In this document: positions 19,057 through 24,293 of the stretch, one piece after another
Layout of the letters: every line of letters begins with the position of its first letter
Position numbering within the stretch: position 1 is the first letter of the stretch
The notes under the pieces: model-generated
The model's database searches: none
What the model saw: the letters and a program-made list of their open reading frames with translations, nothing else
What the model was told of the DNA's origin: nothing
Assembly: GCF_000685355.1 (NCBI RefSeq)
Contig: NZ_JHET01000002.1
Coordinates: 186,001 to 250,000, forward strand
Length of the DNA: 64,000 nt
Direction of reading: 5' to 3'
Source of the DNA: Microbacterium sp. CH12i
GTDB taxonomy: Bacteria; Actinomycetota; Actinomycetes; Actinomycetales; Microbacteriaceae
Made by a program: the position numbers and the translations under genes

Positions 19057-20247
19057 TCAGTTGCGCACTCGGTTTGAGGCCCCGAACAACACCGCGCCGA
19101 CGACCAGCGCAGCCGCTCCGAGGCTGTACGAAGGCTCCACGCCGATGCTGTCGACGAGGATCCCGCCGAGCCCTGCGGCGAGCATGATCGCGAACTGGAA
19201 TCCGACGACCACCAGGCTGCCGCCGGCCTCCAGTCGATCGGGCATCTGGTGTCCGACCCAGGTGTTGACGACGATCAGCCACGAGGCGAAGAAGAAGCCC
19301 CAGACGAATACCGCGACCCCGACGCCGAGCACCGAGCCCGACATCAGAATGGTCGCAGCCACCGCCACCGCGATCACGGCGGGCGCGAGAACCGCGAAGA
19401 ACCTGAATGATCGGTCGATGATCAGGCCGATGCTGAGGTTTCCCACCAGTCCGCCGATTCCGAAGATCGCGAGCAGCATGACGATCGTGCCGGCGTCGAT
19501 CTCCGGCATCCGCTCAAGGGCGAGACGAATATAGGTGTAGGCAAGGAAGTGTCCGAGCACGACGAAGACGTGTCCGATCAGCCCGAGCCCGACGCCGGGT
19601 CGGCGAATCGTGTCGAGGAGCAGTGTGAAACTCGAGACCTGTGCGGGCGGAACCGGCGGAAGCATGGTGCGCAGTGCGATCGCCAACAGCCCGGTCACGA
19701 TGCCGGCAACCGCGAACACCGCACGCCAGTCCATGATCTCGCTGAGCATGACGCCGACGGGAACGCCAGCAACGGTGGCGAGCGACGTGCCCGCTGAGGT
19801 GAACATCACCGCGCGGCCGAGTCGCTCTGGTCCGGCGATCCGCACGGCCACAGTGATCGACATCGACCAGAACGTGGCCAGCGCCGCACCGAGCAGGGAC
19901 CGCGCGAGCAGGATCAGGATCAGGCTCGGTGCGACCGCGACGATGAGGTTCGAGGCGGCGGCGGCGAGCGCCATCCAGACCAGCAGTGCCCGACGGTCGA
20001 GGCGAGGAAAGACCATCCCCACAGTCGGCGCGACGATCAGGCCGATGAGCGCAGTCACCGTGACGGTCTGCCCCGCCTGACCGGGCGTTACTCCCAGCTC
20101 GGCTGCCATCTCTGTGAGCATCCCGTTGGGCAGGAACTCCGCGGTGACGAGGACGAAGCTCAGCAGCATCACAACGATGAGGGCACCGTACTTGATACGC
20201 TCCGCGGGGTTCGGGGCGGCGACGGGGATGGACGCGGTCGTTGTCAT
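19057..20247 (-). CDS. MFS transporter, DHA1-type efflux permease
   Basis: The 396-residue protein has 12 hydrophobic helices and the DHA1 pattern: ALIVVMLLSFVLVTAEFLPNGMLTEMAAELGVTPGQAGQTVT at the N terminus. This resembles the arabinose/purine-nucleoside/chloramphenicol exporters (AraJ, NepI, Cml). The ATG at 20247 starts the first helix; the 184 codons of open frame upstream are a shadow of the RIO kinase gene and its leader. It likely exports a small molecule or drug. Substrate unknown. Confidence 0.85.
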   Translation of the reverse strand: MTTTASIPVAAPNPAERIKYGALIVVMLLSFVLVTAEFLPNGMLTEMAAELGVTPGQAGQTVTVTALIGLIVAPTVGMVFPRLDRRALLVWMALAAAASNLIVAVAPSLILILLARSLLGAALATFWSMSITVAVRIAGPERLGRAVMFTSAGTSLATVAGVPVGVMLSEIMDWRAVFAVAGIVTGLLAIALRTMLPPVPPAQVSSFTLLLDTIRRPGVGLGLIGHVFVVLGHFLAYTYIRLALERMPEIDAGTIVMLLAIFGIGGLVGNLSIGLIIDRSFRFFAVLAPAVIAVAVAATILMSGSVLGVGVAVFVWGFFFASWLIVVNTWVGHQMPDRLEAGGSLVVVGFQFAIMLAAGLGGILVDSIGVEPSYSLGAAALVVGAVLFGASNRVRN

Positions 20248-20339
20248 TGTTCTACTTTCGCAGGAGCGTCGATGCTGCGCCCGACCACTCGTCCGCAGCA
20301 TCCGACCGATCGTCCGCCGTCGTGTATCGTCAAAGGTCA

Positions 20340-20353
20340 CCGGGATGTCCCGG
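20340..20353 (+). promoter_or_regulatory. Short hairpin at the 5' end of the RIO leader
   Basis: CCGGGATGTCCCGG is palindromic around TG. It lies upstream of the leader-peptide ribosome-binding site, after a possible -10 box TATCGT (20324-20329). Confidence 0.4.
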
Positions 20354-20380
20354 GAAGAACCGAACGGAAGGAGCCGTGAC

Positions 20381-20443
20381 ATGAACACTGTCGTCGTCGC
20401 GCTTCTCGCCGACCATCTTCCCCTCGAGGCCACCCACTCCTGA
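20381..20443 (+). CDS. Leader peptide of 20 residues upstream of the RIO kinase gene
   Basis: A short frame MNTVVVALLADHLPLEATHS follows a strong ribosome-binding site (GGAAGGAG, 20366-20373). Its stop codon at 20441-20443 lies inside the loop of an 8-bp hairpin whose 5' arm (20426-20433) is part of this ORF. The next gene starts 33 nt later on a weak TTG. The layout, a well-initiated tiny ORF overlapping the arm of a hairpin before a poorly initiated gene, is that of a translational or transcriptional attenuator. Expression of the peptide is not proven. Confidence 0.55.
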   Translation: MNTVVVALLADHLPLEATHS

Positions 20444-20468
20444 TCTGCGCGTGGCCTCCCTTTCGGAG
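20426..20468 (+). promoter_or_regulatory. Candidate attenuator: alternative hairpins around leader-peptide stop and RIO ribosome-binding site
   Basis: GAGGCCAC (20426-20433) pairs perfectly with GTGGCCTC (20451-20458). The second arm ends in CTCC (20456-20459), which can instead pair with GGAG (20465-20468), the ribosome-binding site of the RIO gene. Formation of the first hairpin frees the site; a ribosome sitting on the leader stop would favour the second. No T-run follows, so translational control is more likely than termination. Confidence 0.5.
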
Positions 20469-20476
20469 CAACCACC

Positions 20477-21328
20477 TTGACTGATTCTTTCGCGTCCTTC
20501 GACGCATCCCTCTTTTTCGACGAGTCCCTTACTTTCGCCGACGTCGAACCCGGCGATGACCAGCGCTGGTCCACGTGGCCAGCCATCACGCCGTCCGAAC
20601 GCGGGCCTGAGCCGTGGCCCGAGTGGGTCGTGACTTCTGCCGGCGCGATCGACACTGAACTCGGCATCCTCAAGACCGGCAAGGAGGCAGACGTCTTCCT
20701 CATCGAGCGAGCCGTGCCTGACGAGCCGACGCAGCGCACGCTGCTGGCGGCGAAGCGGTATCGCAGTACCGAACACCGCAGCTTCCACCGCTCGGGCATC
20801 TATACCGAAGGCCGAGAGGTCCGCGACTCACGCGCAGGTCGTGCCATCTCGAAGAAGACCGCGTTCGGCCGCGAGGTAGCCGCGGCCGAGTGGTCATTTG
20901 CCGAGTTCCAAGCACTGAGCCGCATGTGGGAGCTCGGCGCCCCAGTCCCCTATCCGGTGCAGGTGAACGGATCGGAGGTGCTGATGGAGTTCCTCGGCAC
21001 GGATGCCACGGCTGCACCACGACTGGCACAGGTGCGCAGCGACCGGGCGATGCTGGCCGACTACTACGCGCAGATCGTCGAGATCATGCGCGTCTTCGCC
21101 GCGGCAGGCTTCGCCCACGGTGACCTGTCTCCGTACAACCTGCTGGTGCACGAGGGCCGAGTACGCGTGATCGACCTGCCGCAGATCGTCGACATCATCG
21201 CGAACCCGCAGGGGCTCGACCTACTGCACCGTGACTGCGTGAACGTCTGCGACTGGTTCGCCCGACACCGGGTGGAGTGCGATGCCGAAGAGCTCTTCGC
21301 AGAGCTGCTCGCGTCGTCCTATGCGTGA
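20477..21328 (+). CDS. RIO1-family serine kinase/ATPase
   Basis: The 283-residue protein has the RIO core. GILKTGKEADVFLIE is the nucleotide loop, AAKRYR supplies the ATP Lys (near residue 93), HGDLSPYN at 214-221 is the catalytic loop, and IDLPQ with Asp233 replaces DFG. RIO1 proteins in archaea and eukaryotes act in ribosome small-subunit maturation; bacterial members are little studied. Translation must start at TTG 20477 (GGAG 8 nt upstream) since no other start precedes the conserved part. It sits behind a leader ORF with alternative hairpins and before an Atg22-like exporter, 72 bp downstream. Confidence 0.85.
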   Translation: MTDSFASFDASLFFDESLTFADVEPGDDQRWSTWPAITPSERGPEPWPEWVVTSAGAIDTELGILKTGKEADVFLIERAVPDEPTQRTLLAAKRYRSTEHRSFHRSGIYTEGREVRDSRAGRAISKKTAFGREVAAAEWSFAEFQALSRMWELGAPVPYPVQVNGSEVLMEFLGTDATAAPRLAQVRSDRAMLADYYAQIVEIMRVFAAAGFAHGDLSPYNLLVHEGRVRVIDLPQIVDIIANPQGLDLLHRDCVNVCDWFARHRVECDAEELFAELLASSYA

Positions 21329-22810: not shown

Positions 22811-23383
22811 TCAAGGCCGCCAGTTGTCGGCGAGCTTGCTGAGCAGTCGGGCAAGCTCCTGGCTCTCGTCTTCGGTGAATGACTCGAGCGCGTGGGTGAG
22901 CATTTCGCGCCGTTCCCCGCGCATGCCGCGAGCTATCTTCCGCCCCTCATCGGTGAGCGCGATGCGGGTGCGCCGGGCGTCGTCGGGGTCGGCTTCACGC
23001 TGCACGAACCCGCGCTGAACGCCCTGCTGCACGAGCCGTGATGCGCGGGGCTGGTCGACGCCGATCGCTTCGCCGAGCGCGCTGACGCTGAGCGGTTCGG
23101 ATGCTGCGGCTAGAGCCTCCAGCATCCTCATCCATGCCGGGCCTCCGAGCCGGCCACCCGGGCCGCCCGCCCACGGCGGCGCGCCGAATCCGGGTGCACC
23201 ACGATGTCCGCGCCCGCGTTCGTGTGAACCGTGCTCGTGTGGGCCGTGCTCGTGTGGGCCGTGCTCTCCATGCGGTCCGCCGTGTCCGTGTCCGTGCAGC
23301 CCCATGCCCAGCGGACGCCGCCCGCGCAGGCGCGACAGGGCATTCGCGATCATCTCGGCGGGGTCAGGAATGTCTGTGCTCAC
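22811..23383 (-). CDS. MarR-family regulator with His-rich N-terminal segment
   Basis: The 190-residue protein starts at GTG 23383. Residues about 28-62 form a His/Gly/Glu repeat (HGHGHGGPHGEHGPHEHG and on). It is followed by a MarR winged helix (LSVSALGEAIGVDQPRASRLVQQGVQRGFVQREADPDDARRTRIALTDEGR). His-rich stretches commonly bind Ni, Zn, Co or Cu. The gene is divergent from a second His-rich winged-helix gene, with repeated (A/G)CATG half-sites between them, and converges on the Atg22-like exporter. A metal- or redox-responsive control circuit is inferred, not shown. Confidence 0.8.
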   Translation of the reverse strand: MSTDIPDPAEMIANALSRLRGRRPLGMGLHGHGHGGPHGEHGPHEHGPHEHGSHERGRGHRGAPGFGAPPWAGGPGGRLGGPAWMRMLEALAAASEPLSVSALGEAIGVDQPRASRLVQQGVQRGFVQREADPDDARRTRIALTDEGRKIARGMRGERREMLTHALESFTEDESQELARLLSKLADNWRP

Positions 23384-23393
23384 GCCCCAACTT

Positions 23394-23467
23394 TACATGC
23401 GACTTGACATGTATCGTCATTGCATGTCACACTACATATACATGCACAGTTACAAGCATAGTTACAA
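23394..23467. promoter_or_regulatory. Operator cluster between two divergent His-rich MarR genes
   Basis: TACATG-N8-CATGTA (23394-23413) and GCATGT-N12-ACATGC (23422-23445) form two overlapping-style inverted repeats of the same RCATG half-site. AGTTACAA is repeated at 23448 and 23460. AT-rich TACATATA in the middle can serve as a -10 box. Confidence 0.6.
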
Positions 23468-23483
23468 ACAAAGGACTTACCCC

Positions 23484-24293
23484 ATGAACTCCATCAACAC
23501 TGATGAAAACACCCGCCCCTTCGGATTCTGGCTCAAGGCCGTCGATCGCCTCATGGCCATCGAATTCGCCGCCGCCTTCGAATCCGAGGGCATCACGCGT
23601 CGCGAATGGCGACTGCTGAACATCGTCGACGGCACCGTCCCTGCACACCGCCGCCAGAGCGATCGCCCCCTTCCCGCACACAAGCTCGGCCGGCTCATCG
23701 AGCTCGGTTGGGTGACGGATGCCGAAGGCACCTGGACCCTGACCGACGACGGCCGCGCTGCCAAAGAGCGCCTCGGCGGCGTCGTCGAAGGCATCCGTGC
23801 GAAGGTCACCGACGCGGTTCCCGCTGAGGACCTCGCCACCACCATGGCCACACTCGAGCAGCTTGCTCGTGCGTTCGGCTGGGATGAGGAGACGCCTCTC
23901 CCCCGCGGACCGCGCGGCGGCTTCGCCGGACGCGGCTTCGGCCCGGGCGGCTTCGGTCGCCGTGGGCACGGCTTCGGTCGTGGACACGGCTTCGGTCGCC
24001 CCGGACGCGGCTTCGGCCACGAGGAACACGAACCGCACTCCGGCCACGAAGGACACGGCTCACCTGAGATGAGCGAGCGCGAAGGCTGCCGCCACGGCGA
24101 GCACCACCTCAATCACGAGGGTCGCGATCACATGGGTCGCGATCACGAGGGGCACGGCCACGAGGGGCACAGCCATCGTGGCGGACCGCGTGGCCACCGC
24201 GGCCACGGCGGCGGACGCATCGCGCACTTCGCGCAGGGTGCCTACGAGCGCGGCTTCGACGCCGGCTTCACCCGCGGGCGCGACGCACAGTAA
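23484..24293 (+). CDS. Winged-helix (PadR/MarR-like) protein with long His/Gly-rich tail
   Basis: The 269-residue protein has an N-terminal winged-helix part: FWLKAVDRLMAIEFAAAFESEGITRREWRLLNIVDG and ELGWVTDAEGTWTLTDDGRAAKERL. A helical segment follows, then from about residue 135 a low-complexity tail of GFGRGHG and HEGHGHEGHSHRGG repeats. The C terminus YERGFDAGFTRGRDA is helical. Tail His repeats suggest metal binding. It is divergent from the shorter His-rich MarR and is followed by a strong terminator. It may be a paralogous partner of that regulator. Confidence 0.72.
   Translation: MNSINTDENTRPFGFWLKAVDRLMAIEFAAAFESEGITRREWRLLNIVDGTVPAHRRQSDRPLPAHKLGRLIELGWVTDAEGTWTLTDDGRAAKERLGGVVEGIRAKVTDAVPAEDLATTMATLEQLARAFGWDEETPLPRGPRGGFAGRGFGPGGFGRRGHGFGRGHGFGRPGRGFGHEEHEPHSGHEGHGSPEMSEREGCRHGEHHLNHEGRDHMGRDHEGHGHEGHSHRGGPRGHRGHGGGRIAHFAQGAYERGFDAGFTRGRDAQ

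Follow-up and report, generated by a model that had tools for sequence, protein, structure and literature searches.

A leader reading frame and two conserved, mutually exclusive hairpins precede an actinobacterial RIO kinase gene and probably form a ribosome-dependent translational attenuator

In this study, we show that a RIO-family kinase gene of Microbacterium sp. CH12i is preceded by a short leader open reading frame (ORF) and by two hairpins that are conserved and mutually exclusive. Covariation is clear for the first hairpin (A:B) and modest for the second (B:C). As judged from folding calculations, the leader is probably a ribosome-dependent translational attenuator, in which full translation of the leader would switch RIO off and an early stall would open it. 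The sequence analysed (the window) comprises 64,000 nucleotides of the 3.35 Mb genome of this strain. The features of the locus are the following.

20340..20353, + strand: candidate 5' hairpin CCGGGA..TCCCGG, before the leader ribosome-binding site (SD); by eye
20366..20373, + strand: leader ribosome-binding site GGAAGGAG; from the sequence, aligned in relatives
20381..20443, + strand: leader ORF of 20 codons, MNTVVVALLADHLPLEATHS; sequence reading and comparison with relatives
20396..20413, + strand: possible mid-leader hairpin GUCG-c-GC/GC-CGAC; by eye, low confidence
20426..20433, + strand: arm A, GAGGCCAC, last part of the leader ORF; alignment and folding
20451..20459, + strand: arm B, GTGGCCTCC, with the A-pairing part 20451-20458 (GTGGCCTC) and the C-pairing parts 20451-20454 and 20456-20459; alignment and folding
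20465..20475, + strand: arm C, the RIO SD GGAG (20465-20468) plus CCAC (20472-20475); alignment and folding
20477..21328, + strand: RIO-family kinase gene, TTG start, 283 aa; Pfam RIO1, 5.7e-35

The initial annotation had described a 20-codon ORF with a strong ribosome-binding site, an 8-bp hairpin with the leader stop codon in its loop, and a TTG start of the RIO gene. Each of these is seen in the sequence: the ORF lies at 20381-20443 behind the SD at 20366-20373, A (20426-20433) pairs with B (20451-20458), and TTG stands at 20477 behind the GGAG at 20465-20468. The leader ORF, from ATG at 20381 to TGA at 20441-20443, is the tail of a longer open frame. The alternative pairing of CTCC with GGAG, also claimed, is present but was under-described, as GTGG (20451-20454) additionally pairs with CCAC (20472-20475). 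The B:C helix is hence GTGG-c-CTCC with GGAG...CCAC, in which CTCC occupies 20456-20459, and the likeness between arms A and C comes from their common partner, B. A CCGGG..CCCGG element was seen by eye at the site equivalent to the 5' hairpin in many Microbacterium relatives; the mid-leader hairpin at 20396..20413 was not predicted by RNAalifold from 44 sequences. Rfam contains no family that reaches its gathering score for the leader element, and the window matches are two tRNAs only; it is therefore not a described family. Divergent from the RIO leader lies an MFS transporter gene (window 19057-20250, - strand), which NepI and Cmx/CmrA efflux models matched below cut-off. At window 22811-24293, two adjoining ORFs of opposite orientation contain very His/Gly-rich stretches (GHGGPHGEHGPHEHG..., GHEEHEPHSGHEGHG...) and look like small transcription regulators.

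A first search found a strong RIO match in 19 of 59 genus genomes, the window's included, and leader ORF and hairpin were present in all 19. We then used a covariance model, R1, built from 44 sequences (28 from Microbacterium); every one of these lies upstream of RIO, and the use of R1 is therefore partly circular. R1 matched 73 of 198 genus genomes at E 1e-3. The RIO kinase is an accessory gene in the genus, with 69 of the 198 genomes positive in the protein search, and the 69 strong R1 matches (E <= 3.4e-7) fall in exactly these 69 genomes, on the same strand and directly upstream of RIO. Seven weaker R1 matches in Microbacterium (E 1e-4 to 1e-3) were considered as leaders of other genes and rejected, being unlike leaders by eye. 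Among 199 family genomes, RIO was found in 29 by protein profile and an R1 match in 30 (E 1e-4), with an overlap of 26. Two of the three RIO genomes without an R1 match (L181, L182) have a leader and hairpin recognisable by eye, and the third (L183) has an N-terminally truncated RIO and no leader. Conservation of ORF and stems, on which the initial annotation had made its reading depend, is borne out: the leader precedes RIO at 69 of 69 strong RIO matches in the genus and at 28 of 29 in the family (26 by model, 2 by eye), and the stems covary.

Three of the four weak R1 matches in the family sample without RIO were not leader-like by eye. The fourth, L179 (G238:C1:123300-124800, about 130-300), from another genus of the family, shows an SD, the short ORF MTTSRRSPHRSL, an AGGCCGC..GCGGCC hairpin and a further SD; the 147-aa ORF that follows looks by eye like a GNAT-type acetyltransferase, and the arrangement is possibly an attenuator of this type on a gene other than RIO. 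In L184 (G349:C1:650600-651500), an intact leader precedes a shortened RIO ORF (170 aa in the stretch taken), much of whose N-terminal half is missing.

Beyond these samples, the loci in named genomes are the best 80 of 580 confirmed relatives, more distant RIO genes lying beyond this reach. On inspection, a short ORF with an SD lies upstream of RIO at all of these best 80 of 580 loci. A strict rule (strong SD, ATG, 10-45 codons, start 45-150 nt upstream) is passed at 78 of the 80, versus 7 of 539 other SD-ORFs there. Two layouts occur. Type I, found in Microbacteriaceae and in Aeromicrobium L056, has a leader of 14-29 codons that ends before the RIO SD, and its stop-to-start distance is 30-41 nt in 53 of 61 loci. 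Type II comprises 37 loci among the best 80 of 580 (Nocardioides, Kribbella, Streptosporangium, Nonomuraea, Actinomadura, Isoptericola, one Streptomyces and others); in 30 of them the leader passes the RIO start out of frame, and in the remaining 7 it stops 38-67 nt short of the RIO start. The leader RNA of 15 Streptosporangiales/Kribbella-type loci has a mean column identity of 90%. Heterozygosity at the three codon positions of these 15 leaders is 0.106, 0.161 and 0.116 (RIO reference 0.048, 0.015 and 0.160); third positions are no freer than the others, so the RNA itself is constrained. For the same 15 loci, RNAalifold pairs the segment before the leader SD (columns 8-17) with the RIO SD (columns 85-93), without double changes, and this fold is therefore a proposal only; if right, it would be off by default, which sets it apart from type I. 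For 11 Nocardioides-type loci, there is weak support for a helix between the leader SD and bases that precede the RIO SD. Clustering of ORFs around the best 80 of 580 loci was also tried as a source of conserved gene neighbours and discarded, the clusters being by appearance mostly wrong-frame or antisense.

The hairpins were examined in the type-I set of 61 loci, with L070 (Microbacteriaceae) outside it; removal of the duplicates L031, L039 and L041 left 58 distinct sequences. Alignment A3 holds 53 of these, without L010, L036 and L040, which stop at the start of A, and L038 and L068, which have no standard A. Alignment A4, the basis of the covariance model, excludes 14 of the 58. In A3 (about 52-53 sequences), A:B is paired in 93.8% of cells, and sliding the partner gives at most 60.5%. 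The initial annotation had suggested looking for covarying stems, and compensatory changes are indeed found in A:B: 10 cells are changed on both sides, as many as in none of 500 shuffles, and 3 pairs show a double change, equalled in 32 of 500 shuffles. RNAalifold finds the A:B helix de novo in A4 (44 sequences). CTCC:GGAG is paired in 96.2% of cells, yet it is almost invariant, and 93 of 500 shuffles are equally well paired, so that this pairing proves little by itself. Its extension in B:C reaches a cognate mean of 4.29 (of 5) versus 4.08 with permuted partners, which 2 of 2000 permutations attain, a modest effect. When the B-C segment is folded in isolation, the SD pairs with B in 49 of 51 sequences, compared with 164 of 400 other GGAG sites (mean z -2.58). 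On average, A:B is more stable than B:C (-17.5 versus -11.4 kcal/mol).

Loci L012, L017, L038, L041, L061 and L068 have no recognised B arm. GAAAG replaces GGAG as the RIO SD in three sequences: in L057, a CTTTC adjoins the GAAAG and could pair with it, yet the SD stays single-stranded in the predicted fold of the B-C segment; in L044, B is altered and three of four pairs are kept; in L054, pairing is preserved at the outer positions and over half of the SD. In the window itself, comparison with dinucleotide shuffles gives z -3.05 for A:B and z -2.56 for B:C. The 171-nt region folded whole is unremarkable (z -1.33), and the case therefore rests on conservation.

The effect of ribosome position was computed by partition-function folding of 52 distinct sequences, with the ribosome footprint barred from pairing. 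With a ribosome terminating on the leader, the probability of SD:B is 0.75, that of A:B 0.00 and that of a free RIO SD 0.06; with a ribosome held at codon 8, the values are 0.45, 0.49 and 0.20. Folding without a ribosome gives a mixed state (SD:B 0.49, A:B 0.47, RIO SD free 0.15). Comparing termination with codon 8, SD:B is higher in 33 and lower in 7 of the 52 sequences. The window follows the same course more sharply: SD:B is 0.94 and the free RIO SD 0.02 under a terminating ribosome, A:B is 0.99, SD:B 0.05 and the free RIO SD 0.33 with the ribosome at codon 8, and A:B is 1.00 and the free RIO SD 0.34 with none. A cruder opening-energy test on 61 loci is weakly supportive: opening the RIO SD costs 5.85 kcal/mol at termination, 5.03 at codon 6 and 5.00 without a ribosome, and the cost at termination versus codon 6 is higher in 31 and lower in 19 loci. 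The computed direction is therefore that full leader translation turns RIO off, while an early stall or the absence of a ribosome leaves RIO more open. As the RIO SD is largely paired even with an early ribosome, the 'on' state may be just partly open. The geometry of ribosome-dependent translational attenuation, proposed from the window alone, is supported by the conservation of exclusive hairpins and by the switch that folding predicts.

In the mechanism that we propose, arms A, B and C would compete; the more stable A:B would leave C unpaired from B, and B:C would hide C. A ribosome finishing the leader would cover A, whereby B would be freed, C closed and RIO turned off. A stall in roughly the first ten codons, or a failure of ribosomes to load, would allow A:B to form and make RIO translatable. 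The likeliest cause of such a stall, we infer, would be a drug or condition that works at the peptidyl-transferase centre or exit tunnel and acts on the Val-rich N-terminus (V-x-V), and RIO would be produced when translation is in trouble. In the related arrangement that is common outside Microbacteriaceae, the leader crosses the RIO start in another frame, and transcription would probably proceed from a WhiB7/WblC-dependent promoter.

The frame of the leader is tied to the stem. Among 55 sequences with a recognised A (3 of the 58 lack a standard A), ATG and A are 36 to 68 nt apart, and this distance is divisible by three in 51. Of the four sequences that break the rule, L010, L036 and L040 have short leaders similar to one another, each stopping at A. 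Peptide-level selection on leader codons 2-8 was considered and rejected: in 41 leaders, anchored at the start codon and not realigned, synonymous-to-nonsynonymous change stands at the neutral expectation (0.301 versus 0.294), and therefore no exact peptide is held. A conserved peptide end of the EATHS kind, expected at the outset, did not appear, as the C-terminus tracks the RNA stem; the recurring feature of the peptide is its Val-rich N-terminus: 48 of the 57 distinct type-I peptides show [V/I/F]-x-V, and the window's leader has three consecutive Val codons.

This enrichment bears on the nature of the signal. The main rival signal is valine starvation: the same RNA switch would respond to a shortage of valine (or branched-chain) tRNA, the early Val codons stalling a starved ribosome. 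Of the residues at codons 2-9 in the 57 distinct type-I peptides, 27% are Val, versus 8.3% in RIO, and GTC accounts for 95 of 127 of these Val codons versus 646 of 1478 in RIO. The downstream gene is, however, not one for amino-acid biosynthesis, type-II leaders contain less Val (18%), and classical attenuators repeat the regulatory codon in longer runs; we regard valine as a quite improbable signal. Translational coupling, in which ribosomes would end about 33 nt upstream and re-initiate at RIO so that leader translation raises RIO expression, is unlikely too. It would account for the short spacing between leader stop and RIO start, steady at 30-41 nt in 53 of the 61 type-I loci, and for the common TTG and GTG starts at RIO, and re-initiation at leader ORFs is proposed in the accessible portion of PMC4833913. 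Coupling, however, needs neither a B arm with two alternative partners, A and C, nor compensatory changes in A:B, and the out-of-frame overlap with the RIO start in 30 of 37 type-II loci (among the best 80 of 580) hinders downstream re-initiation.

It is highly unlikely that the ORF is incidental and that a conserved RNA is read by a protein, by a small RNA, by temperature or via mRNA stability. An RNA-level constraint does speak from the third codon positions of the 15 Streptosporangiales/Kribbella-type leaders, which are as conserved as the others, and the neutral-looking substitution ratio in the leader codons points the same way. Start, SD, stop and frame are nevertheless kept despite varying leader length, and a switch set by the position of the translating ribosome is the reading that we retain.

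Promoters of the WhiB7/WblC type serve the response of actinobacteria to ribosome-targeting antibiotics. The WblC promoter consensus given in the accessible text of PMC7157823 is GAAAWY, 3 nt, TKGM, 16-19 nt and TANNNT. We scored the 152 nt upstream of the leader and accepted scores of at least 10, with families taken from the record titles and with L050 and L058, whose titles name no family, counted as Microbacteriaceae. Such a promoter is found at 32 of 38 loci outside Microbacteriaceae (L069, L071-L100, L102-L107; among the best 80 of 580), a frequency that ties the RIO gene to translation stress. In all 32, the motif begins 82-99 nt before the leader ATG, with a -10 element that is mostly the weaker CANNNT; four of the six misses show by eye an AT-rich hexamer 3 nt before TTG or a TTG-like element. 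The same score is reached in 33 of 4000 random windows, in 17 of 283 windows upstream of other SD-ORFs at non-Microbacteriaceae loci (which may include RIO itself), in 2 of 42 Microbacteriaceae loci (among the best 80 of 580), and at none of the 19 loci formed by the window and 18 genus relatives.

The distribution of WhiB genes was read alongside. All eight non-Microbacteriaceae genomes tested contain a shorter WhiB match, which spans profile positions of about 5-9 to 56 and scores 54-61 bits; in the three that were read (L174-L176), an AT hook follows it, and we take an AT hook after the WhiB match to mark WhiB7. The window genome has two WhiB genes with an AT hook in neither, and exactly two WhiB matches occur in 30 of 39 genus genomes, some others having extra weak matches. 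WhiB7 is thus likely absent from the genus Microbacterium. Judged from sequence, a leader seems to govern RIO in both groups, with WhiB7 as a further regulator in the lineages that bear it. The promoters suggest that RIO outside Microbacteriaceae belongs to the antibiotic-response regulon. The words 'RIO' and 'kinase' are absent from the main text of PMC7157823 as far as it was accessible, and its supplements may already list this membership.

The protein itself matches the Pfam RIO1 domain with E 5.7e-35 and, below cut-off, the NCBIfam PA4780-type model; its best solved chains are RIO3 (8zdb) and Rio1 (12ez, 1zp9). K93, HGDLSxYN and DLPQ, which we take to be the kinase motifs, are invariant in 18 aligned RIO proteins, and an active kinase or ATPase is therefore likely. 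Ahead of the RIO domain, at RIO residues 29-50 (alignment A2), a motif QRW(S/T)TW...RGPxPxPxW is kept in 18 of 18 proteins. Eukaryotic RIO proteins are thought to act on stalled or unfinished ribosomes. A conserved ribosome-sensing leader, together with a WhiB7-type promoter at most of the other actinobacterial loci examined, suggests that the RIO protein is needed when translation is under stress. We tentatively go further, to a view that we hold as possible rather than probable: the RIO kinase would be a widespread actinobacterial translation-stress factor, switched through its leader by ribosome trouble in the examined lineages and additionally driven by a WhiB7 promoter where WhiB7 exists, would act on stalled or unfinished ribosomes like its eukaryotic relatives, and may protect against ribosome-targeting antibiotics. 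Leader and promoter offer a concrete handle on the poorly understood bacterial RIO kinases, namely on the inducing drug or condition and on the fate of ribosomes without RIO.

Concerning known systems, no leader or attenuation of a bacterial RIO gene is described among the open-access papers listed for this subject, in agreement with the initial annotation, which knew of no such case. The eukaryotic and archaeal RIO1, RIO2 and RIO3 kinases include the closest solved relatives of the window's protein (RIO3, Rio1); the papers listed describe no leader-type regulation. Classical amino-acid attenuators combine a codon run with a biosynthesis gene and an intrinsic terminator; here the leader is Val-enriched, yet a RIO kinase lies downstream, and no terminator-like site is present in 20240-20520. 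In Streptomyces coelicolor, the ARE-ABCF genes are5sc and tiaA are controlled by ribosome-mediated attenuation through actinobacterial uORFs that sense ribosome-targeting drugs; their leaders, MLV and MVGDDDISG, have predicted terminator/antiterminator folds (accessible portion of PMC12421871), whereas the RIO leader has no terminator-like site. The promoter of the WhiB7/WblC regulon is common to most RIO loci outside Microbacteriaceae and is missing at the window's locus and at 40 of 42 Microbacteriaceae loci (among the best 80 of 580).

The erm attenuator has four arms, whereas the RIO leader has three. The early V-x-V of the leader presumably resembles the IFVI stretch of ErmCL, which we take as a lead only. 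In macrolide-induced ermCL-ermC, a short SD-bearing leader ORF likewise precedes exclusive stem-loops, one of which hides the main-gene SD, and a stall on the leader frees this SD (accessible text of PMC13148051 and PMC10219788); azithromycin stalls ribosomes at Phe7 and Ile9 of ermCL (PMC13148051, same portion). Unlike ermCL-ermC, the ribosome-free fold of the window leaves the RIO SD unpaired from B, and the downstream gene encodes a RIO kinase instead of the rRNA methylase of ermC. Two traits of erm- and cat-type leaders are found here, namely a short SD-bearing leader ORF directly upstream and exclusive hairpins, one of them, by computation, sequestering the main-gene SD. The proposed attenuation mechanism is of a known kind; new, as far as could be seen, are the gene under control, the form with three arms, the breadth of occurrence and the link to WhiB7.
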